A stretch of DNA of 64,000 bases from Ochromonas danica (lineage: Eukaryota > Sar > Chrysophyceae > Chromulinales > Chromulinaceae): NCBI GenBank assembly GCA_015146655.1, contig VKHL01000034.1:124001-188000 (forward strand). Direction: 5' to 3'. Below, piece after piece: positions 12,601-57,971 of this stretch (positions are counted from its first letter, which is position 1; each line of letters begins with the position of its first letter). The position numbers were made by a program, and so were the translations under genes. The notes below the pieces were generated by a model that was not told the DNA's origin, made no database searches, and worked only from the letters and a program-made list of their open reading frames with translations.

Positions 12601-13120
12601 CCAATTCAACATGGTGATTAACGATGAGTTACCATGCATTCATGGTGCTTTAGAATTGATGGGGGTGCCTCGTGGAGACGTCAAGGTTTCTATTGTGATC
12701 TGTCAGAAGCGCCACCACACTCGTATCTTCTACGATGATAATGGAGAGCATGTCAATCCATGCCCTGGTTTGGTTTTGGATGCCCGTGGTGCACAGTCTA
12801 TCACGAACGCTACTATCAACGAGTTTTATCTCAACTCTCATGCGGCAATTCAAGGAACTTGCAAGCCATGCAAGTACGCTCTCATTTATGATGAAATCGG
12901 CTTTCGCTTGTCTGAGTTGGAGTTGCTCACCTATTGGAGTACCTATCTCTACGCTCGTTGCAATCGCTCGGTGTCATATGCCACTCCTGCCTATTATGCT
13001 CACTGGGCATCTCAACGCTGCAAGGAGTTGTTTAAAGCTGGTTGTACAGATTCTGAGCTGCGTGAGATTTCTGATCGTTGGTCTCGCCCTGGCATCCCTT
13101 CCACTATGTTCTTTATATAG
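9652..13120 (+). CDS. AGO: Argonaute (AGO-type) with RGG-rich N-terminus
   Basis: Five exons (9652-9673, 9779-9823, 9892-9915, 9989-10762, 10821-13120) join in phase 1 throughout to a 1,054-residue Argonaute, the small-RNA-guided core of silencing complexes. Residues about 6-113 are RGG/RGY repeats, a usual substrate for arginine methylation. Then follow N/L1 (VNVSGLSPQIAHYHVHIYRI), PAZ (about 375-540), MID (about 645-770) and PIWI (about 800-1054). The catalytic tetrad is complete by manual alignment: D805 (GMDVSHPEPG), E844 (RQETV), D877 (YRDGVSDGQF) and H1016 (YYAHW). Spacing is close to human AGO2, so slicing is likely. In the MID 5'-phosphate pocket, Lys (DIKFV), Gln (VTQCV) and Lys (VLKIN) are kept, but the position matching AGO2 Tyr529 reads His. 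Exons 2 and 3 (45 and 24 bases) are symmetric micro-exons encoding RG repeats. An in-frame ATG at 9535 exists but would add an unrelated-looking segment; the ATG at 9652 is preferred. Confidence 0.95.
10010..10230 (+). repeat. GC-rich RGG-coding minisatellite in the Argonaute gene
   Basis: The Argonaute fourth exon opens with glycine/arginine codons. It includes three close copies of a unit that encodes GRGGYDGGRGG, at about 10065-10155. It is much richer in GC than the surrounding gene. Long open frames on the other strand and in the other forward frame here are artefacts of this composition. Confidence 0.75.
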
Positions 13121-34500: not shown

Positions 34501-34675
34501 ATATTGATTCTGTACGTCGTAAACCATTTAGTTGGATTTCAAATGAAGCATGGTTAAATGTTGTAGAATTATCACAATCACAGAAATTCTTTGCTAATCT
34601 TCCTAATGATATGTCAGGTAAGAATTGAATAGACTGTCTAATGATTGCCCTATATCCTCTCTAATACTTGTGTGT

Positions 34676-34709
<34 letters not shown>

Positions 34710-39403: not shown

Positions 39404-39783
39404 TGGATTGAAATGTGATCATCCTGTTTGGCGTGTAATAACGAGTCATTCATTTTTGGTAATCTAACAAGAGGTACAAGAGTACAGACAGATAGTGTTT
39501 AGGCTTTTTTCTGTTTTGTTCTGCTGCCAAAATTTCATCGGAAAGAATAATCCGTGGAACTGGAAGATACTACTGATAGTGGAGCACCATAATCATTGGA
39601 ACGAGAAGAGGAAGAAGGTGGTGGGGGAATATGGTTCGTCATAGATCAGTTTCCTTTGTTCACAAACGTGGATTCCGCCGTATCATTCCATGGAATACCC
39701 CGCTCTCTCTCACGGCGCCCTCCTCTGTTGTGGGCCAAATCCTCACAAACAAATAGACGACAACAAGCAACATCATCAACATC
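39404..39783. other. Upstream region with a direct repeat and a REV1-derived fragment
   Basis: Bases 39459-39551 recur imperfectly at 41285-41380 (shared core AATCTAACAAGAGGTACAAG), so the pair flanks the next gene. Bases about 39556-39698 match the 5' end of the REV1 gene (about 43566-43717), in the same orientation as found there and therefore antisense REV1 with respect to the downstream gene. From about 39752 on, the sequence matches that upstream of the gene at 51620. Confidence 0.75.
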
Positions 39784-41208
39784 ATGGTATTACTAGGATT
39801 ACTTAATGACCTCCTGGAAGAGCTACAGGCTGAATTTAGATTCGTTGTCTACCTCATCCAATGCTTTATAAAATTATTTTATTCTGTGTTTTCCTATTTG
39901 ATGGAAGTGACAGAAAAGGTCATTTCGATTTTAGAGAAGAAAGATGAAGCAGAAGAAGAAGTGAGAAGGAGTGAAGAAATAAGAAGAATACAAGACGAAA
40001 AAGATCGTTTTGTGATAGAGGAGGTGATGTCTGACCTTCTGGATGCCGTTTTGGAAACAAGATACATGGAAGCAGAACGAAGAGCAGAAGAAACAACCAA
40101 TCAATTGCAGCAGGCCCTTACGGCAAGAGCGGTTGAATGCACTGAGCGAATGGAAGCGAAACAAAGAGCAGAAGAGCTCAGCATTCAGCTGCAGCAAGCG
40201 CTTGAAGCCAGAGATGCTGAGAAGACTGCACGAGAAGAGGCTGAACGAAGGGTGAACGAAACAGCCAATCAGCTTCAGGAAGTGCTTGCAGCTGGAGAGG
40301 CTGAACTAAGAACGTGCGTTGAGGTGGAAATGAAGGTGGATAAACCGACCAATCAGCTGCGGCAAACCCTTGCGGCTGGTGAAATATCAGCTGCGGCAAA
40401 AAGGAAACGAAACAAAGTAGAAAAGAAGGCAGAAGAAGCCAATACTCAGCGGCAGCAGGCTCTTGCTGCCAGAGAGTCTGAAGAGAAAACTCGAAGCAAA
40501 GTAGAACCAATAGAGGAGGGAATTATCGTTAATCTAGTGCAAGTAGAGGACCACGCTGTAGTAGAGGAGGTAGTGTCTGATCCAGTGATTGCAGTCTTAG
40601 AAGCAAACCATGTTGAAGCGGAACGAACAATCAGCTATCTACAACAAGCAATTACTGCCAGAGATTTTGAGAAGACTGCACGAGTAGAAGCGGAACGAAT
40701 CAATCAACTGCAACAGACGCCTTGTGCAAGATCACCGACCACCGGCAACGCAGGGAGCTCTACTGACGATATCATTCCCCACCCCATTCCTGCTGAGGTG
40801 GTCGCTGAAAGAGCTCAATTCAGCGAGGTTTCCTCAGTCTTCGAGGGAATGTTGGTGGAGCAGAAGTTCGGCAGCACATCTTCGTACAACTCCAAGTTTA
40901 TTTGGATTAACCTCAAGTTGCGAAAATTCTGTGTATCTGACCATAACTCTCACCTTCGCTCTCACAAGCAGGCATCACTCGCGGATATCTCAGGTTTACT
41001 GCCTGGAGCTCCACGCAAGTACAAGGGGTGTCGCGGACCTGATGGCAAACATATCCGTTTGGATCCTTCCCTGTGCTTGACCATTAGGTTTAACAATGGT
41101 GGAGATGTGGACCTGAAGTTCCCAACTTCCAGTGAACGTGACCTCTGGAAGAACGTTTTGGATCGTATTCTTTTTCGAACAGAAGGAGTTGGAGAGGCTG
41201 CCGAATAA
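39784..41208 (+). CDS. Coiled-coil protein with C-terminal PH-like domain
   Basis: This is a single-exon 474-residue protein. Residues 1-140 are almost identical, in DNA as well, to the start of the gene at 51620 and related to the gene at 4934-8070: a hydrophobic/amphipathic segment (FVVYLIQCFIKLFYSVFSYL), then a charged coiled coil with about 28-residue periodicity (NQLQQALTARAVE, SIQLQQALEARDAE). Instead of ankyrin repeats it ends in a PH-like module at about 345-465 that starts FSEVSSVFEGMLVEQKF and continues FIWINLKLRKFCVSDH, SLCLTIRFNNGGDVDLKF and the final helix SERDLWKNVLDRIL. PH-like domains usually bind phosphoinositides or proteins. The protein probably dimerises and sits at a membrane. 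The gene lies between direct repeats (39459-39551, 41285-41380) and just 3' of a REV1-derived fragment, and it points towards the true REV1 gene. The PH call is by pattern only. Confidence 0.8.
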   Translation: MVLLGLLNDLLEELQAEFRFVVYLIQCFIKLFYSVFSYLMEVTEKVISILEKKDEAEEEVRRSEEIRRIQDEKDRFVIEEVMSDLLDAVLETRYMEAERRAEETTNQLQQALTARAVECTERMEAKQRAEELSIQLQQALEARDAEKTAREEAERRVNETANQLQEVLAAGEAELRTCVEVEMKVDKPTNQLRQTLAAGEISAAAKRKRNKVEKKAEEANTQRQQALAARESEEKTRSKVEPIEEGIIVNLVQVEDHAVVEEVVSDPVIAVLEANHVEAERTISYLQQAITARDFEKTARVEAERINQLQQTPCARSPTTGNAGSSTDDIIPHPIPAEVVAERAQFSEVSSVFEGMLVEQKFGSTSSYNSKFIWINLKLRKFCVSDHNSHLRSHKQASLADISGLLPGAPRKYKGCRGPDGKHIRLDPSLCLTIRFNNGGDVDLKFPTSSERDLWKNVLDRILFRTEGVGEAAE

Positions 41209-41565
41209 TGGACAGTTTTTGAATCTTTCTCAAAACAAGTCATTTTGCGATCGCAAATCATCATCAAATCAAGTCCTTTTTGAGTTAATCTAACAAGAGG
41301 TACAAGTGTACAGAGAGATTGTATTGAGGTTTTGTCTCGCTCCATTGTAAAAGTTTCATCGAGAGGAATAATTCATACCAATGTTAGTGGGAATTGCTCT
41401 GTGAACTATCCACACTTGCATTGGAGAGCTTAGACATCTACAGTAACTCTTTAATTGACTTTTTCAACAATTGTCCAAACAATTGTAGAAAATGGCGAAA
41501 GTGTGAGAAATCGGTTATAATATCACCAAACCATAAAGTCTGCACAGAGAAGAACATCGTCACCA
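41209..41565. other. Intergenic region between convergent genes
   Basis: These 357 bases hold the second copy (41285-41380) of the direct repeat that flanks the PH-domain gene. A small CAATTGTCCAAACAATTG palindrome sits at about 41468-41485. No gene was seen. Confidence 0.6.
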
Positions 41566-43647
41566 TTATGAATGTCGACTGCGTTTGGCTTGGCGCAATA
41601 CTATAAGTTGTTCTTGACGGATTGATTCAGGCAGAGAGTCCCAGACAGTGCGATCGACTTCCTCCAAGAGCTCCTCTTCTTCTTCCTTCTTCTTCTTGTT
41701 TGCTGTCATTCCTATTCCGCCACCAAAAAAGGTTCTTTTTGGTTGTTGTTTCGGTTGCTCATGCTTCTTCATTGTCTCTTTCTCTTGTAATGTTGGCTGA
41801 TTGGAAGACTGTGCTGCTGGCTGGAAGAAGTTTGCAATAGTACTCCTCTTGACCACTGATTTCGATGATTGCGGTGGGGGACAAGAGATTCTATTAGTGG
41901 TAAGACTGGAGGAAGTAGGAGCATTTTCAGCAACAGTCACAGCAATAGGAAGAGGTTCTGGGGAGGCAGGAGGGTTTGCTGGGCTAGACCGACAGTCATC
42001 CTCGTGGAGCAGGTCAACCATAGTGGAAGTGTTAAGAGGACGAGTGAATGAGAGGATTGACCTTTGCTGTCCCGTGCTCCCTTCTCTTCTATTATTGCCT
42101 GTTCTATCAATGCTTGTTGACATAGCTATATCACCGTCACCGTAACTATCTTCATCACTTCCCACAACATTCCCTCCATCCTCCCCTTCTTCTTCCTCCT
42201 CTTCCCAAAGCTCCTTCGCTTCTTCTTCATCATACTGCAACTTCTTCAAATGAATCCCTAATCCTCTCAATTCATCTGGTCTCAGCCCCATCTGCTTATA
42301 AAGTACCAAGACATGTTGCCACAATTCAATAGCAAACTTCAATCTTCGCGCGAGATTGACAGTGCGAGAGAGATCCTCGCAACGCCCACAACCCAAGAAC
42401 TTCTCCGGCTCTCCCTCATAGAGTCTTCGCTTGGCATGTAAAGTGATTTGAAAGGCGCTATATCCAGTCTTTACGAGACGACCGACTACTTCTTCGCTCA
42501 ACTCCTTTAAGAATGTCCGTACTTCCTCTTCTCGTTGAAATCGAATTCCCCAATTTATATCCACACCTAATGACTGTCTTGGTGGATTGCATAATACACG
42601 ATCATCCATACCATGGGCATAATGATATAACGTCTCTCCAGTCTTCTCTCCAACAAGCTGTTGCAAGGAATGCAAAGAAACCCTTCGCAGGTCACCACAA
42701 GTAGTTAGACCAGCTTTCTTGCATTTCTCCGTAATAGAATGACCAAAGCCAGGCAAAGAAGAGATAGGCAGGACAGCGAGCAATCCTTTCTCATTGTCTA
42801 AGGCATCTTCCAAGCAGAGGTAGTGACTGCCATTGGGCTTTGCTTGCTGAGTGGCTAACCTCGCCAGGAGAAGATTCTTGCCGATACCTATTGAAGCACA
42901 GCATTGGGTAGCCTTATAGATAGCAGCTCGGATCTCTTCCGCTACTTCTAAAGCCACTGATCGAAGTGAGGAAGAAGTGCCTCTAGCAAGAGGTGGGGAA
43001 GGTCGAAGTAACCTCTTCCTCACCTCTTCTGTGAGGTCAAGATAACCTTCATCGCACGAGACAGCTTGGACGAAGTTGGCATACCTCAAGAAGAGGCGAT
43101 AAAGCTGCTTAGAAACCATGTCATAGTCCTCGAAGGAATAGGGTAATACGACAAGGTCGGGGATGGAAGAGCGAGCATTACCTAGAAACATGCCATTGCG
43201 AAGACCTCGCTTGCGCGCTTCATAGTTACAAGAGGCGATCTCGGAAGAAGAGTAGAAGGTAGTGGAGGAAGAAGAGGAGTTGGAACCGCGACCTCCATGT
43301 CCCTGTCCATGAGCTACAACGACAGGCTTGTCCAGGAGGTCGGGTCGCTGTCTCTGACTCACTGAGGCGAAGAAGCAGTCCATGTCCACGTGCATTACTG
43401 TACGATAAGGGTCGTCTAGAGATGCGCGACGATAACGTTGTGGTGCAGCAGCCATGCCACGGGCGACCAGGTCTGCCAGCTCGCTCTTCCAAGTGCTGAG
43501 ATGGTGCAGACGCGAGGAAGCAAAGAAGTTTCGTATAAAGCCTGGAGATGTCGATGTCAAGGCGGAACTGGAAGATACAGGCAGTGGAACATCATAATCA
43601 GTGGAACGAGAAGAGGAAGAAGGTGGTGGGGGAATATGGCTCATCAT
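41566..43647 (-). CDS. REV1: REV1-type Y-family translesion DNA polymerase (deoxycytidyl transferase)
   Basis: This is a single-exon protein of 693 residues from the ATG at 43645-43647. REV1 inserts dCMP opposite damaged or abasic template bases and scaffolds other translesion polymerases. REV1 rather than kappa or DinB is shown by FIRNFFASSRLHHLSTW before the palm, by MHVDMDCFFASV and SSSEIASCNYEARKRGLRNGMF, by SCDEGYLDL with both metal-binding acids, by ASIGIGKNLLLARLA, KAGLTTCGDLRR and VDINWGIRF, and by the LRGLGIHLKKL ending of the little-finger domain. The C-terminal tail has a PIP-like STIANFF and a ubiquitin-binding motif WDSLPESIRQEQL. No N-terminal BRCT domain is encoded in this exon, and the roughly 100-residue C-terminal polymerase-binding domain of animal REV1 is absent. 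The frame stays open upstream to 43827, but those 60 residues do not look like BRCT. Copies of its 5' end occur at 39556 and 51181. Confidence 0.92.
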   Translation of the reverse strand: MMSHIPPPPSSSSRSTDYDVPLPVSSSSALTSTSPGFIRNFFASSRLHHLSTWKSELADLVARGMAAAPQRYRRASLDDPYRTVMHVDMDCFFASVSQRQRPDLLDKPVVVAHGQGHGGRGSNSSSSSTTFYSSSEIASCNYEARKRGLRNGMFLGNARSSIPDLVVLPYSFEDYDMVSKQLYRLFLRYANFVQAVSCDEGYLDLTEEVRKRLLRPSPPLARGTSSSLRSVALEVAEEIRAAIYKATQCCASIGIGKNLLLARLATQQAKPNGSHYLCLEDALDNEKGLLAVLPISSLPGFGHSITEKCKKAGLTTCGDLRRVSLHSLQQLVGEKTGETLYHYAHGMDDRVLCNPPRQSLGVDINWGIRFQREEEVRTFLKELSEEVVGRLVKTGYSAFQITLHAKRRLYEGEPEKFLGCGRCEDLSRTVNLARRLKFAIELWQHVLVLYKQMGLRPDELRGLGIHLKKLQYDEEEAKELWEEEEEEGEDGGNVVGSDEDSYGDGDIAMSTSIDRTGNNRREGSTGQQRSILSFTRPLNTSTMVDLLHEDDCRSSPANPPASPEPLPIAVTVAENAPTSSSLTTNRISCPPPQSSKSVVKRSTIANFFQPAAQSSNQPTLQEKETMKKHEQPKQQPKRTFFGGGIGMTANKKKKEEEEELLEEVDRTVWDSLPESIRQEQLIVLRQAKRSRHS

Positions 43648-43900
43648 AGAACATGGTTTGGTAATTTCCCTTTGTTCACAAAATCGTGGATTCCGCCATG
43701 TCCTTCCATGGAATATCTCTTTGCGGGACAGTTCCCAATTCCGGAATTCCGAACTTGCGAAACTGCAGAACACCCCCAACAGGCGCAACGTCAGCAGCAG
43801 ACCCACAACTTTACACTTGACACCCAAAAGAAAGGATGATGAAGAAAGGAAACCGTCGAAGTGGCAGTTGAAATGAGCTTGCTGTTCCGTAAGGGGGTAA

Positions 43901-43972
43901 GGTGGGTTTTTACTTCAAAATAGTTGGTTTTGGAATTCGCCAAAACTAACTATTTTGAAGTAAAAACCCACC
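43901..43972. repeat. Near-perfect 33-bp inverted repeat (hairpin, 6-base loop)
   Basis: The left arm 43901-43933 and right arm 43940-43972 are reverse complements with one mismatch, around the loop AATTCG. The structure lies in the shared upstream region of REV1 and the myotubularin gene. If transcribed it would fold into a stem of about 33 base pairs. Confidence 0.92.
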
Positions 43973-44063
43973 TCCCCACCTTCAGGAGGTGCCCCCTGAA
44001 GATCTCGTTCTCTGTTCTCTTGCCCTTGTTCATCATCGCTGATGATCACCATCACCAACAACC

Positions 44064-44078
44064 TCATCATCATCAACC

Positions 44079-44111
<33 letters not shown>

Positions 44112-44112
44112 C
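44064..44112. repeat. (CAT)n microsatellite
   Basis: A run of CAT triplets with one CAACCT interruption lies just upstream of the myotubularin start, probably in its leader. Confidence 0.85.
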
Positions 44113-44168
44113 ATCCATCCTATCTTACTCTTATCTTTGCTGTATTATATATAGTCCAATTTTACACT

Positions 44169-47100
44169 ATGGAGATAGCTAAGCGCAAAGCGAATAATCT
44201 CTTCACAGCCAGTCTTAATGCCGGAGTAAACCTCATCCAACAAGTGGCGAGCCTCGGTGGGGCAGATTCCTCCGATGATGAGCGCATTGATGTGCAAGAT
44301 ATAGAAGACTTCATGTCTAATGGCAGCCGAGGTGTGTTGTCCTTCCCCGTCACGAGCCAGCGCACTTGCCGCAAGAAGATGCTCCACCTGCACCTCTACA
44401 AGGCCAAGATCATGCAATACCACGAAGGCAAGAAGCGAGTTTACCCCTGCGGAGATATTATCAATATTGAAAAAGAAGTTTCCGCGCAGATTTTGATGGA
44501 GATGAGGCAGCCCATCGACCTCAGCATCCGCCAGATTAGATTTCTCTTCGACTCTGACGTTGCAGCGGAAAAATTTCTGCAGTACGTTGAATTTCTCAAT
44601 GAGTTCGGAAAGACGATTAAGCAGGCTTTCAATGCTATTGACTATACTCGCTCGGGAGCCATTCGAGCGGAAGATTTGGCTTCTGCGCTGAGGAGAGTTG
44701 ATCTCCATGTGGACTCGACCACTTTGGACCAAATGTGAGTTTTCTATGGAATTGATGTTGCCTTATACTACACCTGTACTCATTTGGCTAACCTGATGAA
44801 CAATGAAACAGGATGGCCTTTGGCCGCAGTGGACACAACGTGCTGGACTACCACGCCTTCCTACGTGTCTTCATGGCCAGCTTTGTCTCCTCGTTGCATG
44901 ATTGCTTGCAGGAATGGTTGAACTTGACTATAGAGTCTAGTGGCGAGCTTTCTTTGAGTGGCCAATCTGGGCCTGTGAAAGTTGTGAACAGTAGCAAGTC
45001 AGCTATAAATATGCTGAGTGGCGAGGAGGTGACCTTTTCTCCAAGGGATCGTGTGCATTGGTGTGTCTTTGTGGGAAAAGCAACAAAGGAGCCATTCTTT
45101 ATTCCTGGTCATCTTATCGCTACCAACTATCGAATCGTATTGACCTCTTCGAGACGAGCTGCCGCGCAACAACAAAAGCCTTCTCGATACGATCTGCCCG
45201 CTTTCTTCAGTCGAATCTGTTTGCCCCTCAGTGCAGTTGTCAAATATACTATTGCTGCACCACGTCATTCTATCTATATCACCTGCAAAGACTATCGAGT
45301 ATTGCGCGTGACACTCTCGGCTTCGGAGGCCACTCGGCAAAGAGTGGAAGCTTACCTCAGTATTTTGCAGAAACTCACCTTCTCCTCGTCGCTTTCTTCT
45401 TCTCGCCTCGAAGATTGTCCTCTTTTTGCGTTTCGTTACGCACCGCCCGAACTTCTTGTTAATTATAATACATTCATCAAAGGCGAAGGAGGTAATACTG
45501 CAGATCATGATCATACAAGGGATTGGAGCTTTGGGTGGTTGTTTAGTGATGTGCGCAGAGACTATGACCGCTTGGGTTTGTCGAATGATCCTCAACATTG
45601 GCAAGTCTTTCACAATAAGGATTACTCTCTCATCGACACCTATCCTCGGTATCTCATTCTCCCTCGAGGGATTACGCTTGATGAGATCAAAGCAGCGGCG
45701 GAATATCGCTCACGCTCGCGTCTTCCCGTCGTAGTCTATAAGCATTCTTTCAGCGTTAGCGGCTCTGAAGATGGTGGTGGAGCGTTGCTGTTACGATCTG
45801 CTCAGCCGTTGGCGGGCATTACCCAAAAAGTTTGTGAAGAAGAGCAGCGTTTGCTTGAGTTTTACCGTATGAGAGGGCAACTAGATCGACCAGGTTCATT
45901 ACGTCATGACCATTCGCGCTTTATCATTCTTGACTGCCGTGGAATCATTGCCGCTACGCTTAATAAAGCTGCGGGAAAAGGAACTGAAAACATCGCCAAT
46001 TACACGAACACAGAGCTCGTGTTTGGTAATATCGATAATATCCATGTCATGCGAGCAGCTGCGCTTACATTGGCGGACAGTTTGGCTAGTTTTTCAAGCC
46101 AGGCAACGGGCATAGAAACTCGTGATCTCATCGATCAGAATATGTCTGGATACTTTGGTAAGCTGGAAGACAGTGGCTGGTTACGTTTCCTTCGTATCAT
46201 CTTGGTTTCCTCGGTATTTGTGGCTGAAAAGTTACACTTTAATCAAGACTCTGTCTTGGTCCATTGCTCTGATGGGTGGGATCGCACCGCCCAGATCACC
46301 TCCATCGCTCAGATCTTGCTTGATCCGTTCTATCGCACCTTAACGGGTTTGGCTACGTTGATTGAAAAAGAGTGGTGTGCATTTGGGCATAAATTTCAAG
46401 ATCGTTGCGGTCATGGTCAAGACAGCAACTCTCTTCCTGATGAAAGATCGCCCGTCTTCTTGCAGTTCTTGGATTGTGTCTATCAACTCCTAGAGCAGTT
46501 TCCCACTACATTTCAGTTCAATGAGGAATTGTTGATTTTCTTAGCCGACCATCATATTTCTTGTCTCTTTGGTACATTTCTTGGTAATAGTGAAAGGGAG
46601 CGAGTGGCTGTGTTGGATGCTCCAAGCCATACCATAAGTATTTGGGATTATATAATGGATGAGAAGAGGTTGTTTAACTTCCTGAACTCTCAATATGTTC
46701 ATTATCCACAGCCTCTATGGCCGCAAACTAGCTTGTTCAACTTGAAACTTTGGCAGAGATATTGGTTGAGATGGGATTCAGTTGCACATCCCAACACTTT
46801 GCAACAGAAGAAACCCTGGCATGATGATTGGTATGGATAACTTGTTTATTGATACTTCTTCTTACTTAATCGCTGATGATGCACTCACTCTTCGCTTTTA
46901 GGGGCAATGGCTATGAGACGATAATTACTACTACGTCTGCAGCCACCAGCAGCAACGTGTCCAAAAGTGGCATATCCTCCTCAACTCCAACTCCACCTCC
47001 ACCCCCACGATCGCCACTCCAGCGCAATCCACCTCCACCCCCACCTTCAACACCGATACAACAATCAAAACTCCCTTTGGAAAGAAAGCACGTGAGTATT

Positions 47101-47805
47101 AGTACCAATAGTACAGAATCATTTATCATGATTGCAGCGTCAGGAACAGATACCGATTCTCCTTATCAGCGAGTCCGCAGTTGGAGTTCACTGTCTCCAA
47201 CTAAACCCAGTAGACGTAAAATAGTATCTTCCTCGTCTAGTGCTGCTAGTTTGGAGAATGTTGGTTGGAAAGAAGAACGTACTACTGAAGAGGCCGCAGC
47301 GTTTCCTTCTTCATCTCCTCTGCCTCCATCACTGGCAACAGCCGACTCCACCACAACTAATCCAATCCGATTAGCTCGAAAGAGTAGCAGCGAATTCAAG
47401 CAACCATTTGGAAAACTGGATGGTATCTCCTCTACCATGACTGTTTCCCAAATCAGCCAAGAGGAGCTGAGCGCAGTTCTCTTGAAACGTTTGCATCGCA
47501 AAAGTGAAAGTAATCTCACCACTAAATCGTCTCCAACTAAACCCAGTAGACGTAAAATAGTATCTTCCTCGTCTAGTGCTGCTAGTTTGGAGAATGTTGG
47601 TTGGAAAGAAGAACGTACTACTGAAGAGGCCGCAGCGTTTCCTTCTTCATCTCCTCTGCCTCCATCGCTGACAACAGCCCACTCCACCACAACTAATCCA
47701 ATCCAATTGGCTCGAAAGAGTAGCAGCGAATTCAAACAACCATTTGGAAAGCTGGATCGTATCTTCTCTGCCTCCATCACTGGGAACAGTAGACTTCACA
47801 ATTAA
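44169..47805 (+). CDS. Myotubularin-family phosphoinositide 3-phosphatase with PH-like/EF-hand N-terminus
   Basis: Three exons (44169-44734, 44812-46830, 46902-47805) give 1,162 residues. Myotubularins remove the 3-phosphate from PI3P and PI(3,5)P2 on endosomes. The active site HCSDGWDRTAQ (Cys674, Arg680) is intact, so catalysis is likely. Before it lie a GRAM/PH module (about 255-360; FFIPGHLIATNYRIVLTS) and the myotubularin-related region (DWSFGWLFSDVRRDYDRLG, YLILPRGITLDEI). The first 190 residues add a PH-like unit (MLHLHLYKAKIMQYHEGKK) and an EF-hand-like loop (DYTRSGAIRAED). Exon 3 is a Pro/Ser-rich tail (862-1162) with an in-frame duplicated unit of 112 codons: 47194 onwards and 47530 onwards. 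The donor of intron 2 is GTATGG, and reading through it would stop at once (46838-46840). The first two exons show ordinary GC content, higher than the dynein gene. The 3' end and flank have been amplified into the array that follows. Confidence 0.9.
47194..47800 (+). repeat. In-frame 336-bp tandem duplication in the myotubularin tail
   Basis: The segment beginning TCTCCAACTAAACCC at 47194 begins again at 47530, giving a period of 336 bases or 112 codons. The copies are nearly identical over about 240 bases, and the second then diverges. The repeat keeps the reading frame, so the protein tail carries two SPTKPSRRKIVSSSS units. Confidence 0.88.
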
Positions 47806-49715
47806 TCCAATCCAATTGGCTCGAAAGAGTAGTAGCAATCTCTACCATGACTTTCTCGCTGATCAGTCAAGCTGCGCAACAGGATCTGAGCGCAGTATTC
47901 TTGAAATGTTTGTATCAGAACAATGAACATGGTCTCACTATCAAATCGCCTCCTGCTGAGGAAACTATTAATTTTCACCCTTGGGTGCGCACTTATCTAT
48001 TTAGATCGAATAAACTCCCAGATATATGTAGTATGATGAGTCTGTGAGCAATATTGTGTACTTCCTTCATGTTTCCAGAAGAGGGATGGCCTTGTTTTCT
48101 TCTTCTGATCTTTTTTGTTCCTTTGTCAATGTCTTTCGTGTTGTCTTTGTCTTTGTGTTCATGTGCGTATTGTGATCAGCAAATTTAATAGAAGAATATC
48201 ATAAGCGACAGGTAGCCTACGAATAAATTCGCAAAGAGACTTGAGAAATCCCACTCCTCCTTCTCTGCTTGTGCTTTCCAACTATTGAGGAGGAAGCATT
48301 TGGGAGGAAAGTGTAATTCAAGTGGGTCCAACAAGAATCCTTCGAATTGAAGTTCGCTATCAAGATGTCTCTTTTCAAGATCATATCAACAAATAAATGT
48401 CATAAACACTAACAACTTAATCAACCTATTCCTTCAGCAGCGAATTCAAACAATAACCATTTGGAAAACTGGATCGTATCTCTACCACGAATTTCAAGCT
48501 GATCAGTCAAGCTGCGCAACAGGATCTGAGCGCAGTATTCTTGAAACGTTGGTATCAGAACAATGAACATGGTCTCACTATCAAATCGCCTCCTGCTGAG
48601 GAAACTATTAATTTTCACCCTTGGGTGCGCACTTATCTATTTAGATCGAATAAACTCCCAGATATATGTAGTATGATGAGTCTGTGAGCAATATTGTGTA
48701 CTTCCTTCATGTTTCCAGAAGAGGGATGGCCTTGTTTTCTTCTTCTGATCTTTTTTGTTCCTTTGTCAATGTCTTTCGTGTTGTCTTTGTCTTTGTGTTC
48801 ATGTGCGTATTGTGATCAGCAAATTTAATAGAAGAATATCATAAGCGACAGGTAGCCTACGAATAAATTCGCAAAGAGACTTGAGAAATCCCACTCCTCC
48901 TTCTCTGCTTGTGCTTTCCAACTATTGAGGAGGAAGCATTTGGGAGGAAAGTGTAATTCAAGTGGGTCCAACAAGAATCCTTCGAATTGAAGTTCGCTAT
49001 CAAGATGTCTCTTTTCAAGATCATATCAACAAATAAATGTCATAAACACTAACAACTTAATCAACCTATTCCTTCAGCAGCGAATTCAAACAATAACCAT
49101 TTGGAAAACTGGATCGTATCTCTACCACGAATTTCAAGCTGATCAGTCAAGCTGCGCAACAGGATCTGAGCGCAGTATTCTTGAAACGTTGGTATCAGAA
49201 CAATGAACATGGTCTCACTATCAAATCGCCTCCTGCTGAGGAAACTATTAATTTTCACCCTTGGGTGCGCACTTATCTATTTAGATCGAATAAACTCCCA
49301 GATATATGTAGTATGATGAGTCTGTGAGCAATATTGTGTACTTCCTTCATGTTTCCAGAAGAGGGATGGCCTTGTTTTCTTCTTCTGATCTTTTTTGTTC
49401 CTTTGTCAATGTCTTTCGTGTTGTCTTTGTCTTTGTGTTCATGTGCGTATTGTGATCAGCAAATTTAATAGAAGAATATCATAAGCGACAGGTAGCCTAC
49501 GAATAAATTCGCAAAGAGACTTGAGAAATCCCACTCCTCCTTCTCTGCTTGTGCTTTCCAACTATTGAGGAGGAAGCATTTGGGAGGAAAGTGTAATTCA
49601 AGTGGGTCCAACAAGAATCCTTCGAATTGAAGTTCGCTATCAAGATGTCTCTTTTCAAGATCATATCAACAGATAAATGTCATAAACACTAACAACTTAA
49701 TCAACCTATTCCTTC
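47722..49715. repeat. Tandem array of a 640-bp unit made from the myotubularin 3' end
   Basis: Units lie at about 47722-48435 (first, with about 75 extra bases near its start), 48436-49075 and 49076-49715. Units 2 and 3 are identical to my reading except for one base near 49670. The start of each unit (AGCAGCGAATTCAAACAA) matches the coding tail of the myotubularin gene and the rest looks like its 3' flank. Each unit still contains an open stretch ending in NFHPWVRTYLFRSNKLPDIC. The array ends at 49715, where unlike sequence begins. Confidence 0.92.
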
Positions 49716-50052
49716 AGCAGAGTTTGGTGTTTCACTATTATACTATTCCAGTTACGGTATTCCTCATTCTCCTATATTTCCCATACACACCACAACACAA
49801 CTCTTCCATCTACCACCGCTCCTTGATGACAGAGCATCTAGCACACCCTCCGCTTGCTCGTTCCACATCCTTTGCCAGATATGTTATTTTCAATGGATAG
49901 TGTGTAAACATACTGTGGTTGGCCTTCTTGTCCAAAGTTTTTCTCCGCCGGTTGTGGCATCTTTGCTACTTCCTACTCCCTCATGAGAGAACATGTTTGG
50001 TTCTCCTTATACAAGCATCTAATTTGCCATGAGCCTTTAGTTACCTCATGTT
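49716..50052. other. Unassigned intergenic segment
   Basis: This stretch lies between the 640-bp array and the mosaic of ankyrin-gene pieces. No open frame or repeat that I can place was seen. Confidence 0.5.
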
Positions 50053-50470
50053 GTCAGTATGTAGCATACTCTGCTCTGAATTGGGATTCTGGTTGCTGTT
50101 GTTATTGAGTTAGAATGGAAAGACTCCTTTCGACCATAACATCTGTAACTGTCATAAAAACGAGTGTCAGATTGATTGATGATTAGATACCATTATGCTA
50201 CAGAGTGCTGAGCCCAAGAAGGGTCCCCAATATGTTGTATTTCTTCTCCCTTCTCCATTATTCCCTCAGAACGCCATTTCTGTAGCCTGTCCAAGCAAAA
50301 CAAGCGAAAACTAATAAACCCAAAAATTCAATTAGAACACCCCAGAACTTCCATGTTGTATCGTCCCCAACTTTCACTCCATACCCCTTGAAAAGGTTCT
50401 TGTTCGCTGCGCATTCTCCTCTTAAATTAATAAACGGGAAAGAAGGCGCGTTTCTCTATATAATGTGCTA
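50053..50470. pseudogene. Mosaic of fragments from the 3' end of the ankyrin gene
   Basis: Three pieces are joined. Bases 50053-50138 match 54905-54990 on the same strand (the last intron and the start of the final exon of the gene at 51620). Bases about 50162-50400 match the reverse complement of about 55012-55252, the final exon and its flank; read on the minus strand they give a close variant of that exon's C-terminus, from YGVKVGDDT through the membrane segment to FAWTGYRN. Bases about 50409-50470 match 55846-55905 on the same strand. The pieces differ from the source by several percent and encode only C-terminal scraps, so this is a relic rather than a gene. Confidence 0.85.
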
Positions 50471-51180
50471 GGCTGGTATCGATTAATGTGACCCTGTGTA
50501 TGGTGATCTACGCAATTAATACATTAACTTTGGTCATACAAAGCACTCTTGAAAGTGAATTGGAGAAGGTTTAATTTAGCATTTAAAATCTCAACTTAAA
50601 GTAGTCGGAGGTAGTAATTACTTATTACATAATTACGGAAGGCGCAAAGTCGACAACAAGTGGCTTGGACCAATCGAGACATGGCGTACACCTTCTCGCT
50701 GTCGGCTAAAGGCTCATACGCCTCTTCCTCCTCGTCGAACAGCTAGAACAACTACCCAGCAAGAATGGGTTGACAAAGCGAGCCTAGTCTAAATCATAGA
50801 AGAAATGCACTTCGGCCTCCCAAAAGCGTCGCCATCATCGACTACTACTATCGCGAAAGGTGGAAAGGAGTACAATGTACAAGGCTTTGAATGGGTTGAA
50901 TCAGGTTGGTGTTCATCATTGCCATTGAATTGTTTGATACGAGGGTGTCGTTGATGATGATAATGGGTCATGATGTGATGAGTTGGATAAGGGATAGTCT
51001 CTTTGTTGCCGATTTCTCATCGGTGTGAGAAGAGGCGACATGATTGTCGAGGAATCGAGTGCGTTTGCTTCAAGAGGCTGCCCTTCCCATGGCCGGTGCC
51101 CTTCTTGTGTAGATTACAGTTGTGTGTTCACGATGTTGCGCTGGCTGTGGGTATTGATCAAAGAGCAATTGCTAATACCT
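50471..51180. other. Unassigned intergenic segment
   Basis: No gene family could be recognised in this roughly 700-base stretch. The portion at about 50640-50790 is richer in GC and has an open + frame of about 50 codons without clear likeness to anything. Confidence 0.45.
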
Positions 51181-51440
51181 CAAGAATAGGTGATAATAGA
51201 GCTGCTTAGAAATCACGTCATAGTCCTCAAAGGAATAGGTCTGCCAGCTAGCTCAGGAGAAAGAAGTTTCGTATAAAGCCTGGAGAGGTCGATGTCAAGG
51301 TGGAAATGGAAGGTACAGCAGGCATTGGAGCATCATAAAATCATTGCAACGAGAAGAGGAAGGGGGTGGCGGGGGGATACGTTCCATCATTGATCGTGGA
51401 TTCCACAATATCCAGGTATCATTCCATGGAATATCGGGGG
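51181..51440. pseudogene. REV1-derived fragment upstream of the ankyrin/coiled-coil gene
   Basis: Bases 51181-51238 match 43084-43141 of REV1. The match then jumps, and 51238-51440 match about 43468-43717, with further short losses. Orientation is the same as at the REV1 locus, so the fragment is antisense to the gene at 51620. It ends at CCATGGAATATC, the same break seen in the copy at 39556-39698. It is a broken piece of a host gene, now lying in the 5' flank of another gene. Confidence 0.85.
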
Positions 51441-51619
51441 GAAGCGTCCAAAAAAATGAAAAAAGTTTGGGAGGAGGGGGTCCTTGGACTGAACACACAC
51501 ACACTCTCTCTCTCTCAGGTACACCTCGTGCAGTATGTCAACGTGGCAGTGCCACGCACACCCAAAGCAGCACACAAGACATAAACAAATAGACGACAAC
51601 AAGCAACATCATCAACATC

Positions 51620-54600
51620 ATGGTATTACTAGGATTACTTAATGACCTCCTGGAAGAGCTACAGGCTGAATTTAGATTCGTTGTCTACCTCATCCAATGC
51701 TTTATAAAATTATTTTATTCTGTGTTTTCCTATTTGATGGAAGTGACAGAAAAGGTCATTTCGATTTTAGAGAAGAAAGATGAAGCAGAAGAAGAAGTGA
51801 GAAGGAGTGAAGAAATAAGAAGAATACAAGACGAAAAAGATCGTTTTGTGATAGAGGAGGTGATGTCTGACCTTCTGGATGCCGTTTTGGAAACAAGATA
51901 CATGGAAGCAGAACGAAGAGCAGAAGAAACAACCAATCAATTGCAGCAGGCCCTTACGGCAAGAGCAGTTGAATACACTGAGCGAATGGAAGCGAAACAA
52001 AGAGCAGCAGAGCTCAGCATTCAGCTGCAGCAAGCCCTTGAAGCCAGAGAGGCGGAAGAACGAAGGTGTGTCGAGGAAGAACGAAGGCGTGTCGAGGAAG
52101 AACGAAGGGTGCAAGAAACAACCCTTCAACTGCAACAGGCGCTTGCGGCGGTAGAAGATGAAGGAAGAACTCGCGTTGAGACTGAAGTATGGGCAGATGA
52201 AGCGACTAATCAGCTGCGGCAAGCCCTTGCAGCTAGACAAGCTGAAGAACAAAAGTTTATGGAGGCAGAACGACGAGCACAAGAAACATCAAATCACCTT
52301 CAAGAAACATCCAATCAGCTGCAGCAAGCGCTTGCCGCTAGAGATGTTGAGAAGACTGGACGAGAGGAAGCAGAACGAAGGGTGGAAGAAACGGCCAATC
52401 GTCTTCAGGAAGCACTTGCTGCTAGAGATGTTGAGAAGACTGGACGAGAAGAAGCTGAACGAAGGGCGGAAGAAACGGCGAATCAGCTGCAGGAAGCGCT
52501 TGCCGCTGGAGATGTTGAGAAGACTGGACGAGAGGAAGCAGAACGAAGGGTGGAAGAAACGGCGAATCAGCTGCAGGAAGCGCTTGCTGCTAGAGATGTT
52601 GAGAAGACTGGACGAGAAGAAGCTGAACGAAGGGCGGAAGAAACGGCGAATCAGCTGCAGGAAGCGCTTGCCGCTGGAGATGTTGAGAAGACTGGACGAG
52701 AGGAAGCAGAACGAAGGGTGGAAGAAACAGCCATTCAACTGCAACAAGTGCTTGCGGCTAGAGAGGATGAAGGAAGAACACGCGATGAGGCGGAAATGAA
52801 GGTAGATGAAGCGACCAATCAACTGCGACAAGCCCTTGCAGCTAGAGAAGCTGAAGAACAAAAGTGTATCGAGGCAGAACGAAGGGTGGAAGAAACGGCC
52901 AATCGTCTTCAGGAAGCACTTGCTGCTAGAGATGTTGAGAAGACTGGACGAGAAGAAGCTGAACGAAGGGCGGAAGAAACGGCGAATCAGCTGCAGGAAG
53001 CGCTTGCCGCTGGAGATGTTGAGAAGACTGGACGAGAGGAAGCAGAACGAAGGGCGGAAGAGGCCAATATTCAGCGAAAGCTCGCTCTTGTAGCTAGAGA
53101 GGCTGAAGAAAGAAGACGAGAGGAAGCAGAAAAGAAGGTGGAAGAAGCTAATATTCAGCGCCTTCTGGCTCTCGCGGCTAGAAAGGCTGAAGAAAGAAGA
53201 CGAGAGGAAGCAGAAAAGAAGGTGGAAGAAGCTAATATTCAGCGTTTTCTGGCTCTTGCTGCCAGAGAGGCTGAAGAAAGAAGACGCGTTGAAGCAGAAA
53301 AGAAGGTGGAAGAAGCGAATATTCAACAGCAGAAGGCTCTTGCTGCCAGAGAGGCTGAAGAAAAAAGACGAGAGGAAGCAGAAAAGAAGGTGGAAGAAGC
53401 GAATATTCAACAGCAGAAGGCTCTTGCTGCCAGAGAGGCTGAAGAAAAAAGACGAGAGGAAGCAGAAAAGAAGGTGGAAGAAGCGAATATTCAACAGCAG
53501 AAGGCTCTTGCTGCCAGAGAGGCTGAAGAAAAAAGACGAGAGGAAGCAGAAAAGAAGGTGGAAGAAGCGAATATTCAACAGCAGAAGGCTCTTGCTGCCA
53601 GAGAGGCTGAAGAAAAAAGACGAGAGGAAGCAGAAAAGAAGGTGGAAGAAGCGAATATTCAACAGCAGAAGGCTCTTGCTGCCAGAGAGGCTGAAGAAAA
53701 AAGACGCGTTGAAGCAGAAAAGAAGGCAGAAGAAGTGAATGTTCAGCGGCGGCAGAAGGCTCTTGCTGCCAGAGAGGCTGAAGAAAAAAGACGCGTTGAA
53801 GCAGAAAAGAAGGCAGAAGAAGCGAATGTTCAGCGGCAGAAGGCTCTTGCTGCCAGAGAGTCTGAAGAAAAAAGACGCGTTGAAGCAGAAAAGAAGGCAG
53901 AAGAAGCGAATGTTCAGCGGCAGAAGGCTCTTGCTGCCAAAGAAGCTGAAGAGAAAAAACGAAGCGAAGTGGAAGCAAGAGAGGAGGGTATTATCGTAAC
54001 TCTAGTGCAAGCTGTCTCAAAAGATTTGAAGCGGATGGTTGATTCAGGAGACACGACAATATTGAACTTGCTAAAGACCTACCAGGCTATTCACAGAATT
54101 CCTGAGAAGGTAATCAATCAAAGATTTGCCGTAGCTCAGGTAAATGTAACCAATCGTTATTCTGAAAGGCATCGAAACATGACTCGTCAAGTGCTGCTTT
54201 CAATATGCATTCTTATAACTGTTGTGACATGTGGCGAATTGTCTTCTTTAGGATTTTATGACCGCATTGCACATCTCAGCTACCAAGGGGAATGTAGAGA
54301 TGTTAAAATTACTACTACTACATCTCCAGATCGATGTCAATGATGTGGGGCCTGGGGTAAGTGCAGTAACAGATTTGGGGTGGTAATAGTAGCGAATCAT
54401 AAAATTTGTGGTAGTGTTTGTATCAATTTTGAGTTGATGTCATGATGACGGTTTGTCATTTTAATGGTTTGGTGTATGTGAATAGCAGGGATGGACTGCA
54501 CTGTTCTTCGCATGTTACGTAGGACAAGTGGAGGCTGTGAAGGCTCTTTTGTCGGACGCTCGAGTCGATGTTAACAAGGAGAATCAGGTGAAGAGTATGC

Positions 54601-55148
54601 CCTTGTAGTTTACATATATTTATGGCTAATCGTAAAGCCGGCAGCTGCATCTACTGTAATTGGATGGGTGTGAATAGACTGTAATAATAGATTAGATTAC
54701 TGTTGCGAGAAGTTATGCTGCGATGATGATGTTATGTGCTTATAGATGTTTTTCTTATGGATATATGGTTGGTGTTTGTGAATAGGATGGATCTACCCCA
54801 TTGCACACTGCTTGCATGGCAGGTCGTTTGGAAGTAGTGAAGATTCTTTTGGAAGACAATCGAATCAATTTCGCCAAAGTGAATGAGGTAAACGAGACTT
54901 TAGTCGTGTTGTCAGTATGTAGCATGCTCTACTCTGAATTGTGATTCTGTTTGCTGTTGTTGTTGAGTTAGGATGGAAAGACTCCTTTCGATGTGGCAAC
55001 AACAAAGGAGATTAAAAACCTTTTCAAGGAGTATGGAGTGAAAGTTGGGGACGATACAAAATGGAAGTTATGGGGTATTCGAATTGATTTTATGGCTTTA
55101 TTGGTTTTTGCTTGGTTTGTTTGGACAGGCTACAGAAACGTCTTCTGA
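51620..55148 (+). CDS. Coiled-coil/ankyrin-repeat protein with C-terminal membrane helix
   Basis: Five exons (51620-54139, 54252-54356, 54489-54587, 54786-54887, 54972-55148) join in phase 0 to 1,000 residues. The N-terminal 140 residues, with the hydrophobic segment FVVYLIQCFIKLFYSVFSYL, are almost identical to those of the gene at 39784. Residues about 95-790 are a long coiled coil built of 28-residue (four-heptad) units such as EETANQLQEALAAGDVEKTG and EEANIQQQKALAAREAEEKR. Exons 2, 3 and 4 each encode one ankyrin repeat (MTALHISATKGNVEML; GWTALFFACYVGQVEAV; GSTPLHTACMAGRLEVV). The last exon has a half repeat (GKTPFDVATTKEI) and a membrane helix (FMALLVFAWFVWTGY). The design suggests a membrane-tethered, rod-like scaffold. 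The binding partner is unknown. REV1-derived sequence lies in its 5' flank and copies of its 3' end lie at 50053-50470. Confidence 0.87.
52300..53980 (+). repeat. 84-bp coding minisatellite (28-residue coiled-coil units)
   Basis: Two arrays with the same 84-base period lie inside the first exon of the coiled-coil gene. The first, at about 52320-53060, has units starting GAAGAAACGGC. In the second, five nearly identical units start at 53306, 53390, 53474, 53558 and 53642. A period of 84 bases equals four heptads, so unit gain or loss keeps both reading frame and coiled-coil register. Long open frames seen here on other frames and on the other strand are by-products of the repeat. Confidence 0.93.
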
Positions 55149-56157
55149 GGGAATACAGGAGGAGGGAGAAGAAATACAACACAATGAGGACCCTTCTTGG
55201 GCTCAGTATACTATTGCATAATGGTATCCAATCATCAATCAATCTGATACTCATTGATGGGAACGAGTGCTAACTATATCAAATAATATAACTATAGCTA
55301 TAGTTAACTATATCCTTCATTAAGAGTATAACTCCTTGAACATCTACATCAAAAAGTACTGTGTTGTAGAACCTTCTCCTTCTTCTTTGTCATCAAGACC
55401 AACAAAGATCAGGAGACTGGGGAGGGACTTGAATACGATAGTGTTGGTTAGTATCGTCACCAAAGCACTTTCTAGTAGTGAGCACTCGCTGCAACATGAT
55501 AGTTGCGATACTGCTGTAGCAATGCATGCCACTGTTATAATTTGGAGTGAATATTATCGTAGAAGATGAATGGAGGGAAGAAGTCCATCATGGGTGGAGA
55601 TGAGCAGGTATTACCAGAAAGGACATGCTATCATTGACAAAGAGCTGAGGAAATGACGTCTTCCATCTCATGCTTAAAGAAGGTCCAAAGGGTTTGCCCC
55701 AGTATTCATTCTCATGACAGAGAATTACACCGTGTAACCAAAACTAGAACCCAAAACAATAATTCAACCTCCTTCTACGAATTTCAAATGCCAAATATAA
55801 TTTGGTGTTTGAAATTCGTTGAAGGAATTCCAAATTCAATCCAAAGCATTTTCTCCTCTTAAATTAATAAACGGGAAAGAACGCACGTTTCTTTCTATAA
55901 TGTAATTGCTTAACAAAGGAGGTAAGTAATTTCGCTCTTCACTTGCTGCTGTTGTTTGGCCTCCTATTGGTGGGAGGTGATCGAATTCCAAATTGTGTTG
56001 TTGACTTGACTTGGCTTGACGTGTACTATCCCACTGTCTTGCTCTCGTTATTATCACTAGTGTGTACTGTGGGTCGTATAGTGGTGAAAAGAGAGTCAGT
56101 GTGAGTGTGGTATTCTATCATAGGATATTACTATACCATATTATGCATTAGTCAGAC
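55149..56157. other. Intergenic region with hairpin
   Basis: About 1.0 kb lies between the ankyrin gene and the PTSQPS gene. It holds the hairpin at 55771-55825 and the segment (55846-55905) copied at 50409-50470. Short repeats of an ACTATA kind occur at about 55274-55310. No gene was seen. Confidence 0.55.
55771..55825. repeat. 26-bp imperfect inverted repeat (hairpin, 3-base loop)
   Basis: The left arm 55771-55796 and right arm 55800-55825 pair with about three mismatches around the loop ATA. It lies in intergenic sequence close to the copied segment at 55846. Confidence 0.85.
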
Positions 56158-57971
56158 ATGATGATGACAATGTATTGGGTGAACACGCTTCTTTTCTTCT
56201 TGACTATCTGGGAGATGAACTTCCATTATCAAATACAAGCTGTTCCTTTTTCTTTCACTGATTCTCAAGATAGTCTATCCAATATACCTTCTTCCCTTCC
56301 AACAGGCCAGCCTACGAGCTCACCAACGGAAATGCCAACTGGTCAACCGACTAGTCAGCCAAGTGCCCCACCAAGTGGTCAGCCTACTGGTCAGCCTACT
56401 AGTCGACCAACCAGCTGGCCAAGTGCCCAGCCCACATCCTATCCTAGCAGCCAACCTAGCAGTCTTCCAACAACTCAACCCACAGCCAATCCCAGTGCAC
56501 AACCCACAGCCAATCCCAGTGCTCAACCAAGCAGCCAGCCTAGCACCCAGCCTAGTACTCAGCCCAGCAGTGAACCCAGTGCACAGCCTAGTGCTCAACC
56601 TAGTGCTCAACCTAGTAGTCAGCCTTCATCAGCGCCATCCCCAGCTCCTTCTCCTTCACCCACAGCTATGCCTACCCCTGTGGGTAGTTTAGGTGTTACC
56701 TGGTGGTGGATGGTGCAGTCTTCTGTCGTCTTGACCTCGTCACAGTCCTTGGCCGGCTATGGCAGTGAGAAGCTACAAGACGATGTTGTTGAAGCCTTTC
56801 AAACTGTCTTACAAACAACATCTTCTTCACCCATGCAAGCCACTCTGATTACCATGAATACAGCAGCATTGCCATATGGTAATGTCCCGCCACCTAATGG
56901 AGGAGGACCAGACAATGGTGGTGGAAATAATGGTAATGGTGGCGGTGGTAATGGAGGTGGTAATGGTGGCTCGCCTCCACCAAATGGTGGTCCTCCTTCG
57001 GGTGGATATCGACCTCAAAGTGGCTCTTATATCACCACCTTTACACTGTCCATCTGGTGTGATGATGATGCAGATCTTCACACTGTCTGGTCTGGAATGA
57101 CAACTCTTGCAGTCAATGCTACAGCTCTACTCAGGTAAGACAACCACTACAGTATAGACTCTACTACACAGACTAACCGACTTGTCTTCAACGAACTAGT
57201 CCTCTTCATAAAGAAGGACTAACAAGTGTAACGACCTCTTCTGTCAATCATTTAGTCCTCTCCACTACAACAACTGCACCACCAAATAGTTCAGATGATG
57301 GCTCTTCCTTTGATGCTGGTCTCATTGTCGGGGTCATAGTCGCGGTGATTGTTGGTGTTACCTTGTGTTATCTATTCTCCTATTCTTCAGCTGGTATTGC
57401 CTGTTATCTCTCCATCAGACAATGTTGGGATCATAGTGGAGGTTTCTTATTATCAGATGAAGAAGAAGGTATTGAGATTGATAAAACATCATCGACATTA
57501 CGACATTTGAATATTCACTATCGTGATCGTTATGATGATGTTCGTCATGAGACTATTGATGATGAATCTGATCATCAACGACAACAAAAGCAATTAGCAC
57601 GTGGACTACCTGTTCGAACTCAACCTTCCCCATCTGCTGCTACAGCCATCACGTCCACGTTTCGATGGAATAATAATAGTGGTCATGGTAGCAATGGTAA
57701 TACTAGTAGAAGTGGAACAAAAGGGAAGGGTTATCGTGGTTCCAATCCTATCCATCAGTTCGATGAAGATGATGAAGATGAGGAAGGATTTACGCATATT
57801 GATCTCCAGTCAACATCTGATGAGGCGGCGCCACAAGCAACTCGAAGTAGTATTACTCCGTCGTCGTCAGCAAGCAAAGGAAAGACTATGGCTTATACGA
57901 CATTCTTTGGTAGTTCAGGCTCTGCCATGAAGACTTATCGTGATGGAGATGTTGATGATGGAGTCATTTGA
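56158..57971 (+). CDS. PTSQPS-repeat type I membrane protein
   Basis: Two exons, 56158-57134 and 57200-57971, join in phase 2 to 582 residues. A signal peptide (YWVNTLLFFLTIWEMNF) is followed by about 120 residues of PTxxPSxQPTSQPS repeats. Such repeats are frequent in secreted and wall-linked proteins of stramenopiles and are probably glycosylated stalks. A folded domain of about 200 residues follows (VTWWWMVQSSVVLTSSQSLAGYG...YITTFTLSIWCDDDADL), interrupted by a Gly/Asn/Pro run. Next come one membrane helix (FDAGLIVGVIVAVIVGVTLCYLF) and an acidic and Ser-rich cytoplasmic tail of about 190 residues. The expected place is the plasma membrane, with the repeats outside. The globular part is not a family I can name. 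The start at 56158 is the first of several close Met codons. Confidence 0.85.

Follow-up and report, generated by a model that had tools for sequence, protein, structure and literature searches.

Three genes in a 64,000-nucleotide stretch of the Ochromonas danica genome (contig C34, positions 124001-188000; hereafter the window) belong to a family of several dozen predicted ankyrin genes, dispersed and locally clustered, in which a constant first part and a constant last exon enclose a variable set of ankyrin exons. The genome is eukaryotic, with 31.2 Mb in 337 contigs. The window genes are called W39 (start at 39784, plus strand), W51 (51620, plus strand), and W8 (8070, minus strand), and other members are named by contig. 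We lean, with modest confidence, toward a reading in which the 5' ends of these genes are homogenised by gene conversion, their ankyrin exons are moved by unequal exchange, and their proteins make up a scaffold or recognition repertoire. All gene models were read from the DNA sequence, and the splice sites of W51 were placed by eye.

A genome-wide family with a constant-variable-constant plan

With the first 95 residues of W39 as the query, 29 matches at about 28 places were found at E≤0.01, and a second variant of this N-terminal module (N-module) gave 32 matches. The module preceding the ankyrin repeats gave 48 matches at E≤0.01, with 40 (39 places) below E=1e-5. With 150 of the 263 candidates scored, the first ankyrin exon gave at least 52 matches at E≤1e-8. 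The final, or cap, exon gave 61 at E≤0.1, the weakest of which are uncertain. An earlier note on the window had predicted a larger and variable family. The roughly 28 places found with the first 95 residues show that the family is not limited to three copies, and the ankyrin arrays accompanying the N-module are variable.

To describe the plan of the family, the three window genes and 20 further members fetched with their flanks were compared. All counts out of 23 refer to this set and omit five of the 28 N-module places, which were not obtained at length. Exon 1 encodes a long hydrophobic helix or module, a charged coiled coil of varying length, and, ahead of the ankyrin repeats, a conserved module (the pre-ankyrin module) with the pattern NWQQMIESGD.T.LKTLETYNAIHRIP (17 rows aligned). 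The repeat unit of the coiled coil varies between members, being 84 nt (19.5 copies) in W51 and 63 nt (8.7 copies) in C194a. A conserved first ankyrin exon follows, then two or more variable single-ankyrin exons bounded by symmetric phase-0 introns, and then the conserved cap exon.

Ankyrin matches were found in 22 of the 23 members, and the same cap exon, under our search pattern, ends 14 of them; C124_16 has what appears by eye to be a variant cap. The number of ankyrin matches ahead of the cap ranges from 3 to 17 in the capped members, the first ankyrin included. An exact 102-nt phase-0 exon fits 94 of the 140 non-first ankyrin matches (89 of the 94 are distinct in sequence), a count biased upward since the script took the donor site nearest to 102. 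When the exons of C124_37 were joined by hand, with some joining residues guessed, the product matched PF00023 in five stretches (E=1.5e-47), scoring 157.3 bits where the cut-off is 21.1. Unjoined single exons of members, for example on C124, C63, and C262, also pass the PF00023 cut-off in a genome search in which the best 150 of 1122 candidates were scored. The idea that C-terminal domains are generally swapped within the family was not borne out, since only W39 among the 23 members carries a domain other than ankyrin.

Several attempts to connect the constant modules to known proteins were negative. A Pfam match of the N-module to the CNNM transmembrane domain was rejected because it scored 14.5-15.3 bits against a curated cut-off of 28.4. 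The pre-ankyrin module has no solved relatives at E≤1, and a model of exon 1 had no Foldseek match at E≤10. We considered whether pre-ankyrin genes use an alternative N-terminus; the one extra gene examined, C73 (L059), carries by eye a frame-shifted version of the same N-module and no other domain. A scan of viral contigs with the pre-ankyrin alignment returned two stretches that matched the pattern, neither of which was confirmed, and viral origin or carriage was set aside. A telomeric location was also considered: at six loci at or near contig ends, TTAGGG and TTTAGGG units were absent from both strands, but L046 (contig C262) has an internal, telomere-like tandem array of CTAACC (12.5 copies, 8233-8307) downstream of the C262 member.

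Two observations made alongside the family search are recorded here. Other dense arrays of single-ankyrin exons occur on C197, C236, C278, C145, and C198 and may represent a second subfamily; two of these contigs, C197 and C236, also gave weak matches to the pre-ankyrin module. A related reading frame of the type RKAP...TEK.KKRQSINF.KE lies on the minus strand near two members, about 0.4-0.8 kb before the C80 N-module (L042) and 6.6-6.9 kb after the C10 N-module (L057). It is a dispersed repeat and possibly a mobile element.

Near-identical 5' ends of W39 and W51

The 5' ends of W39 and W51 are nearly the same. The block at 39747-40199 differs at three positions from its partner at 51583-52035, both on the plus strand, as determined by alignment and by an identical-run test. 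In that test, the longest identical run in a pair was compared with 20000 shuffles of the aligned columns; nine pairs were tested, with ranges set by hand around the blocks. Ungapped from 39752 and 51588, 379 bases are free of mismatches, after which mismatches occur at 40131, 40139, and 40172 and differences become frequent from 40200. The longest run is 384 columns, from -37 to +346 relative to the ATG, and was reached in none of the 20000 shuffles (797 columns). The first 95 residues of the two proteins are the same. The earlier note had described near-identity over the first 430-460 bases, and the roughly 450 bases with three mismatches found here agree with it. It was also right that the block starts upstream of the ATG, although the start measured here is at 37 rather than about 32 bases.

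Its statement that the remainder of the two genes is unrelated was too strong. Past the block, a homologous and diverged coiled coil is 65-82% identical across the next 160 bases, and the motif EEGIIVxLVQ is present in both proteins. Upstream of the block, a 96-base stretch is 78% identical. Since the block has diverged homologous sequence on each side, non-allelic gene conversion is favoured over the arrival of a new mobile cassette at this locus, as far as the sequence can tell.

In the family member W51 (51620-55148, plus strand), the predicted exon 1 (51620-54139) includes the coiled-coil array at 52315-53952, in which Tandem Repeats Finder detected 19.5 copies of the 84-nt (28-residue) unit. 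Ankyrin exons follow at about 54252-54356, 54489-54587, and 54786-54887, and the cap exon with a hydrophobic tail lies at 54972-55148. The tail contains a hydrophobic stretch with a 19-residue mean of 1.66, which would fit the membrane helix first proposed for this end.

The third window gene, W8 (4934-8070, minus strand), has exon 1, a first ankyrin exon, variable ankyrin exons, and a cap exon. Its N-module (7777-8057, minus strand) is 93% identical to that of W39 over 281 bases, as expected for a third member with the same module. The likeness is uneven: 120 successive columns are identical, compared with 20 mismatches in 263. A run of this length was reached in 1 of 20000 shuffles for W39-W8 and in none for W51-W8. 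Eight scored ankyrin repeats, one degenerate repeat seen by eye, and the terminal cap repeat agree with the ten ankyrin exons originally counted in this gene.

Recurrence of 5' blocks and movement of ankyrin exons

Near-identical 5' ends joined to diverged downstream sequence recur in two other sets of members. In C194a-C194b, identity is 100% in the N-module (-40 to 215), 85% in the pre-ankyrin module, and 92% in the first ankyrin exon. The corresponding values are 100, 72, and 70% for C124_29-C80 and 97, 84, and 68% for C124_29-C124_37. For W39 and W51, identity in the N-module is 99.6%, and later modules are not available for comparison. W39-W51 and four other pairs have identical runs of 248-608 columns, none of which was matched in 20000 shuffles. 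The right ends of the blocks vary by pair (+196 twice, +241, +415, +465, and +690), and all of the five main pairs except C194a-C194b have left edges between -22 and -52.

An intact N-module start is present in 12 of the 23 members, and nine of these (W39, W51, W8, C194a, C194b, C124_29, C124_37, C124_83, and C80) have a block in common with another member. Among the matches listed for the other 11 members, no 5'-restricted block was seen, which is not a full test. Two broken members, C112 and C252, are 94% alike over their whole compared length. The overlap between intact starts and shared blocks fits the idea that conversion keeps starts intact, and is no proof of it.

Ankyrin exons also appear to have moved and multiplied. 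C246 and C262 share a 753-nt block of ankyrin exon and intron near the ends of their arrays that is 98.1% identical, while their 5' kilobase is 73.6% identical. C194a (L038) contains a tandem exon-intron unit of 458 nt in 4.4 copies with 98% matches. In C262 (L046), four exons with the same translation are spaced 692 nt apart, and minisatellites lie in the introns of the array. Ten of 17 disjoint closest exon pairs fall within one gene, which points to tandem exon duplication.

Among the 89 unique exon translations, entropy peaks at repeat positions 1, 3, 8, 11, 12, 20, 23, and 25. We take several of these positions to correspond to binding positions in the numbering of designed ankyrin repeat proteins (DARPins). 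The model of exon 1 from a short member has a single confident helix spanning residues 2-49, where the predicted local distance difference test (pLDDT) has block means of 88-97, followed by less certain helices; overall, the mean pLDDT is 72 and the predicted template modelling score is 0.32. Hydropathy over 19 residues peaks at 1.6 in W39, 1.7 in W8, and up to 2.3 in C124_83; for several members the window began outside the N-module, and their values are not comparable. The hydrophobic segment of exon 1 would suit a membrane or membrane-surface helix. We infer a recognition or scaffold role for the family.

Non-allelic gene conversion between paralogues, or an equivalent double exchange, would produce the near-identical 5' ends. 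In this way the leader and anchor would stay uniform even as divergence proceeds in the coiled coil and the ankyrin array. Whole ankyrin exons could be deleted, duplicated, and moved, with the frame kept, by unequal exchange in introns rich in repeats. The proteins may serve as a scaffold or a recognition repertoire that is membrane-associated or oligomerising, with the helix and coiled coil as the platform and the ankyrin stack as the binding face.

W39 as a fusion derivative and a possible old tandem unit

W39 is a single-exon member of 474 residues (39784-41208, plus strand) with the hydrophobic helix, the coiled coil, the start of the pre-ankyrin motif, and a different C-terminus. It retains, by eye, just EEGIIVNLVQ of the pre-ankyrin module and is not among the matches to that module, and ankyrin matches and the cap are absent downstream. 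Lacking these three parts, it was classed as a fusion derivative rather than a typical member. Its coiled coil past the block is homologous to that of W51 and diverged from it, so the family-type first part predates the recent homogenisation. W39 would be a one-off fusion, with a PH-like domain in the place of the ankyrin stack.

The C-terminal domain (40756-41208, plus strand) had been proposed to be PH-like. Only one other genome match to the C-terminal 150 residues was found, C151 (L058), which is 62% identical over 141 aligned positions. The reading frame of C151 starts, from its first methionine, with MGNNVCPC, which we presume resembles a lipidation signal. The W39 C-terminus had no Pfam match at E≤10. 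Against PDB sequences, it had eight matches at E≤1, all to ribosomal protein L14 and at chance level, and none to a solved PH domain. A structure model of this region had a mean pLDDT of 50, and its top Foldseek matches were PH domains or PH-containing proteins (best E 1.3e-3, none at E≤0.001). The fold comparison hints at PH and the sequence searches do not, and we call the domain PH-like with low confidence, on the basis of a poor model.

The neighbour of W39 is a Y-family (IMS) DNA polymerase gene (41566-43827, minus strand; Pfam PF00817, E=4e-41), and remnants of this gene would mark an old tandem unit. Upstream of W39, the segment 39554-39697 matches the head of the polymerase gene (39556-39697 is 82% identical to 43564-43715) and the region upstream of W51 (39554-39647 is 78% identical to 51300-51395); it has at least three genome matches, itself counted. 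Upstream of W51, the segment 51175-51402 is homologous to 43081-43142 and 43522-43659 of the polymerase gene, at 82.5 and 88% identity. What looks like a W51-like 3' end, degenerate and in part inverted, persists as a remnant at 50046-50466 and matches 54904-54991, 55014-55255, and 55851-55903. Together, the polymerase remnants and the 3' remnant suggest that the locus may once have been a tandem array of units, each with a family gene and a polymerase gene.

Points against the conversion reading and alternative explanations

Several observations weigh against conversion and a selected repertoire. In C194a-C194b the identity continues past -500 on the upstream side, so this pair is equally well accounted for by a simple inverted segmental duplication. 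No significant block was found in C194a-C262 (6648 of 20000 shuffles), and the longest identical run in C124_29-C187 is just 46. Windows from -120 to -41 of W39 and W51 are only 50-65% identical with large gaps; the left edge of their block is therefore not sharp, and an insertion edge there is possible. Stops or frameshifts interrupt many N-modules, which indicates that part of the family has decayed. Finally, the ratio of non-synonymous to synonymous differences (pN/pS) in the 17 disjoint exon pairs is 1.23 (0.82-2.33) at high-entropy positions, which were chosen on the same data, versus 0.46 (0.35-0.64) elsewhere. For a site set defined by DARPin analogy, it is 0.76 (0.51-1.43). Clear positive selection at the variable ankyrin sites was not shown by this comparison, and the evidence for selection on the ankyrin exons is weak.

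The strongest alternative, which we nonetheless regard as unlikely, is that of the earlier note: a mobile 5' cassette in which a promoter, leader, and anchor segment is placed by segmental duplication before unrelated downstream sequences. The clustering of left edges in four of the five main pairs and the poor alignment directly upstream of the W39-W51 block are what such a cassette would leave, homology between C80 and C124_29 is no longer recognisable past about -75, and the PH-like gene W39 can be read as a fusion of this kind. However, the W39-W51 block is flanked on both sides by diverged homologous sequence, so at this locus another reading is preferred. In C124_29-C124_37, too, the region from -120 to -52 is homologous but diverged (80-87% in 40-base windows) and adjoins a 248-column identical run. 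The recipients, moreover, already have the family coiled coil and, except for W39, the pre-ankyrin module.

Distinctly less probable is the ordinary birth and death of an ankyrin family, with recent partial tandem duplications giving near-identical ends and no special diversification system. Clustering (seven pre-ankyrin places on contig C124 and three members in the window) and the many decayed copies would be expected from it. Against this explanation, near-identity confined to the 5' end recurs outside the window, an exon block is common to genes at different array positions, the single-repeat exons are uniformly phase 0, and discordant histories of 5' and 3' modules are already seen.

An assembly artefact, with collapsed or misjoined repeats mimicking identical 5' ends, is hardly credible: the end of C112 and the start of C194 look by eye like the same ankyrin-intron repeat, so the arrays are hard to assemble, but W39 and W51 lie on one contig, differ at three positions within the block and also in their flanks, and a misjoin can exchange flanks and cannot make near-identity.

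Comparison with known repeat-exon systems

Brown-algal LRR-ROC-COR (ROCO) genes were reportedly described by Zambounis in 2012. In the account drawn on here, each LRR of these genes occupies its own 72-bp phase-2 exon, and the genes undergo exon shuffling and diversifying selection (PMC11378527). The family in O. danica seems alike in having single-repeat exons uniform in length and phase, in the shuffling and amplification of exons, and in a variable binding surface. The lineage of the ROCO genes is probably related, both being ochrophyte; in the sequence itself, targeting-like leaders with an AF motif, PTSQPSSQPT-type repeats, and dynein-like sequence point to an ochrophyte alga. In contrast to their 72-bp phase-2 LRR exons, the repeats here are ankyrins in 102-nt phase-0 exons with an ankyrin cap at the end. 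Homogenisation of the 5' end is proposed here and is not part of the ROCO account in the text drawn on; the term 'gene conversion' is absent from the main text of that paper (PMC11378527). No Pfam match to the ROC-COR GTPase was found in the parts scanned, namely W39, W51, W8, and the C194a pre-ankyrin module; the first exons of the remaining 20 members were not covered in full.

In Tetrahymena, LRR genes are described as arrays of phase-2 exons, each exactly 90 bp long, whose form is attributed to ectopic recombination or gene conversion; T. thermophila has 1,874 LRR genes (PMC6564038). Judging from the part of that account used here, uniform symmetric repeat exons, a very variable exon number, and near-identical exons between genes are common to both systems. 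The Tetrahymena exons are phase 2 and the genes far more numerous, whereas the family here has ankyrin repeats together with a constant anchor and coiled-coil exon. Brown-algal NB-ARC/TPR genes, to judge by title, are exon-shuffled repeat receptors and offer a further likeness; no match to NB-ARC or TPR was found in the few family proteins scanned. Ankyrin repeat proteins in general (PF00023) share the repeat sequence and differ in genomic arrangement and in lacking the constant N-terminal module. Among the matches listed in the open-access literature, none described an ankyrin exon-array family by title. By analogy, the family would work like the ROCO and Tetrahymena arrays but with phase-0 ankyrin repeats and no ROCO domain in the scanned parts.

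A more ambitious form of the conversion reading can be put forward tentatively, and we would not expect it to hold in full. In this form, a unicellular alga has an ankyrin system in which conversion repeatedly refreshes the leader and anchor start, while one-repeat exons are moved by exchange at introns that carry minisatellites. The outcome would be a recognition repertoire, possibly immune, that is heritable and quickly renewed. If this is true, ankyrin would be the third repeat fold made into an exon-shuffled repertoire, after LRR (Tetrahymena and brown algae) and TPR (brown algae), and a start exon kept uniform by conversion would be the distinguishing feature of the ankyrin repertoire. 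The way in which single-celled eukaryotes renew their binding repertoires, and whether these serve defence, could also be tested on such a case.

Other genes in the window

Pfam matches among the window neighbours include an aldo/keto reductase, the Y-family DNA polymerase, a myotubularin-like phosphatase, an Argonaute, and a trehalase. The Argonaute-like gene, at 10796-13120, has Piwi, PAZ, and ArgoL1 domains, and a proline-rich reading frame lies just upstream of it on the opposite strand (9951-10418). Reading frames of 3476, 377, and 722 residues at 23004-36836 resemble, by eye, an axonemal dynein heavy chain, which suggests a flagellate stage. At 56158-57138, a protein with a secreted look contains long repeats of the PTSQPSSQPT type, a repeat style known from stramenopiles.

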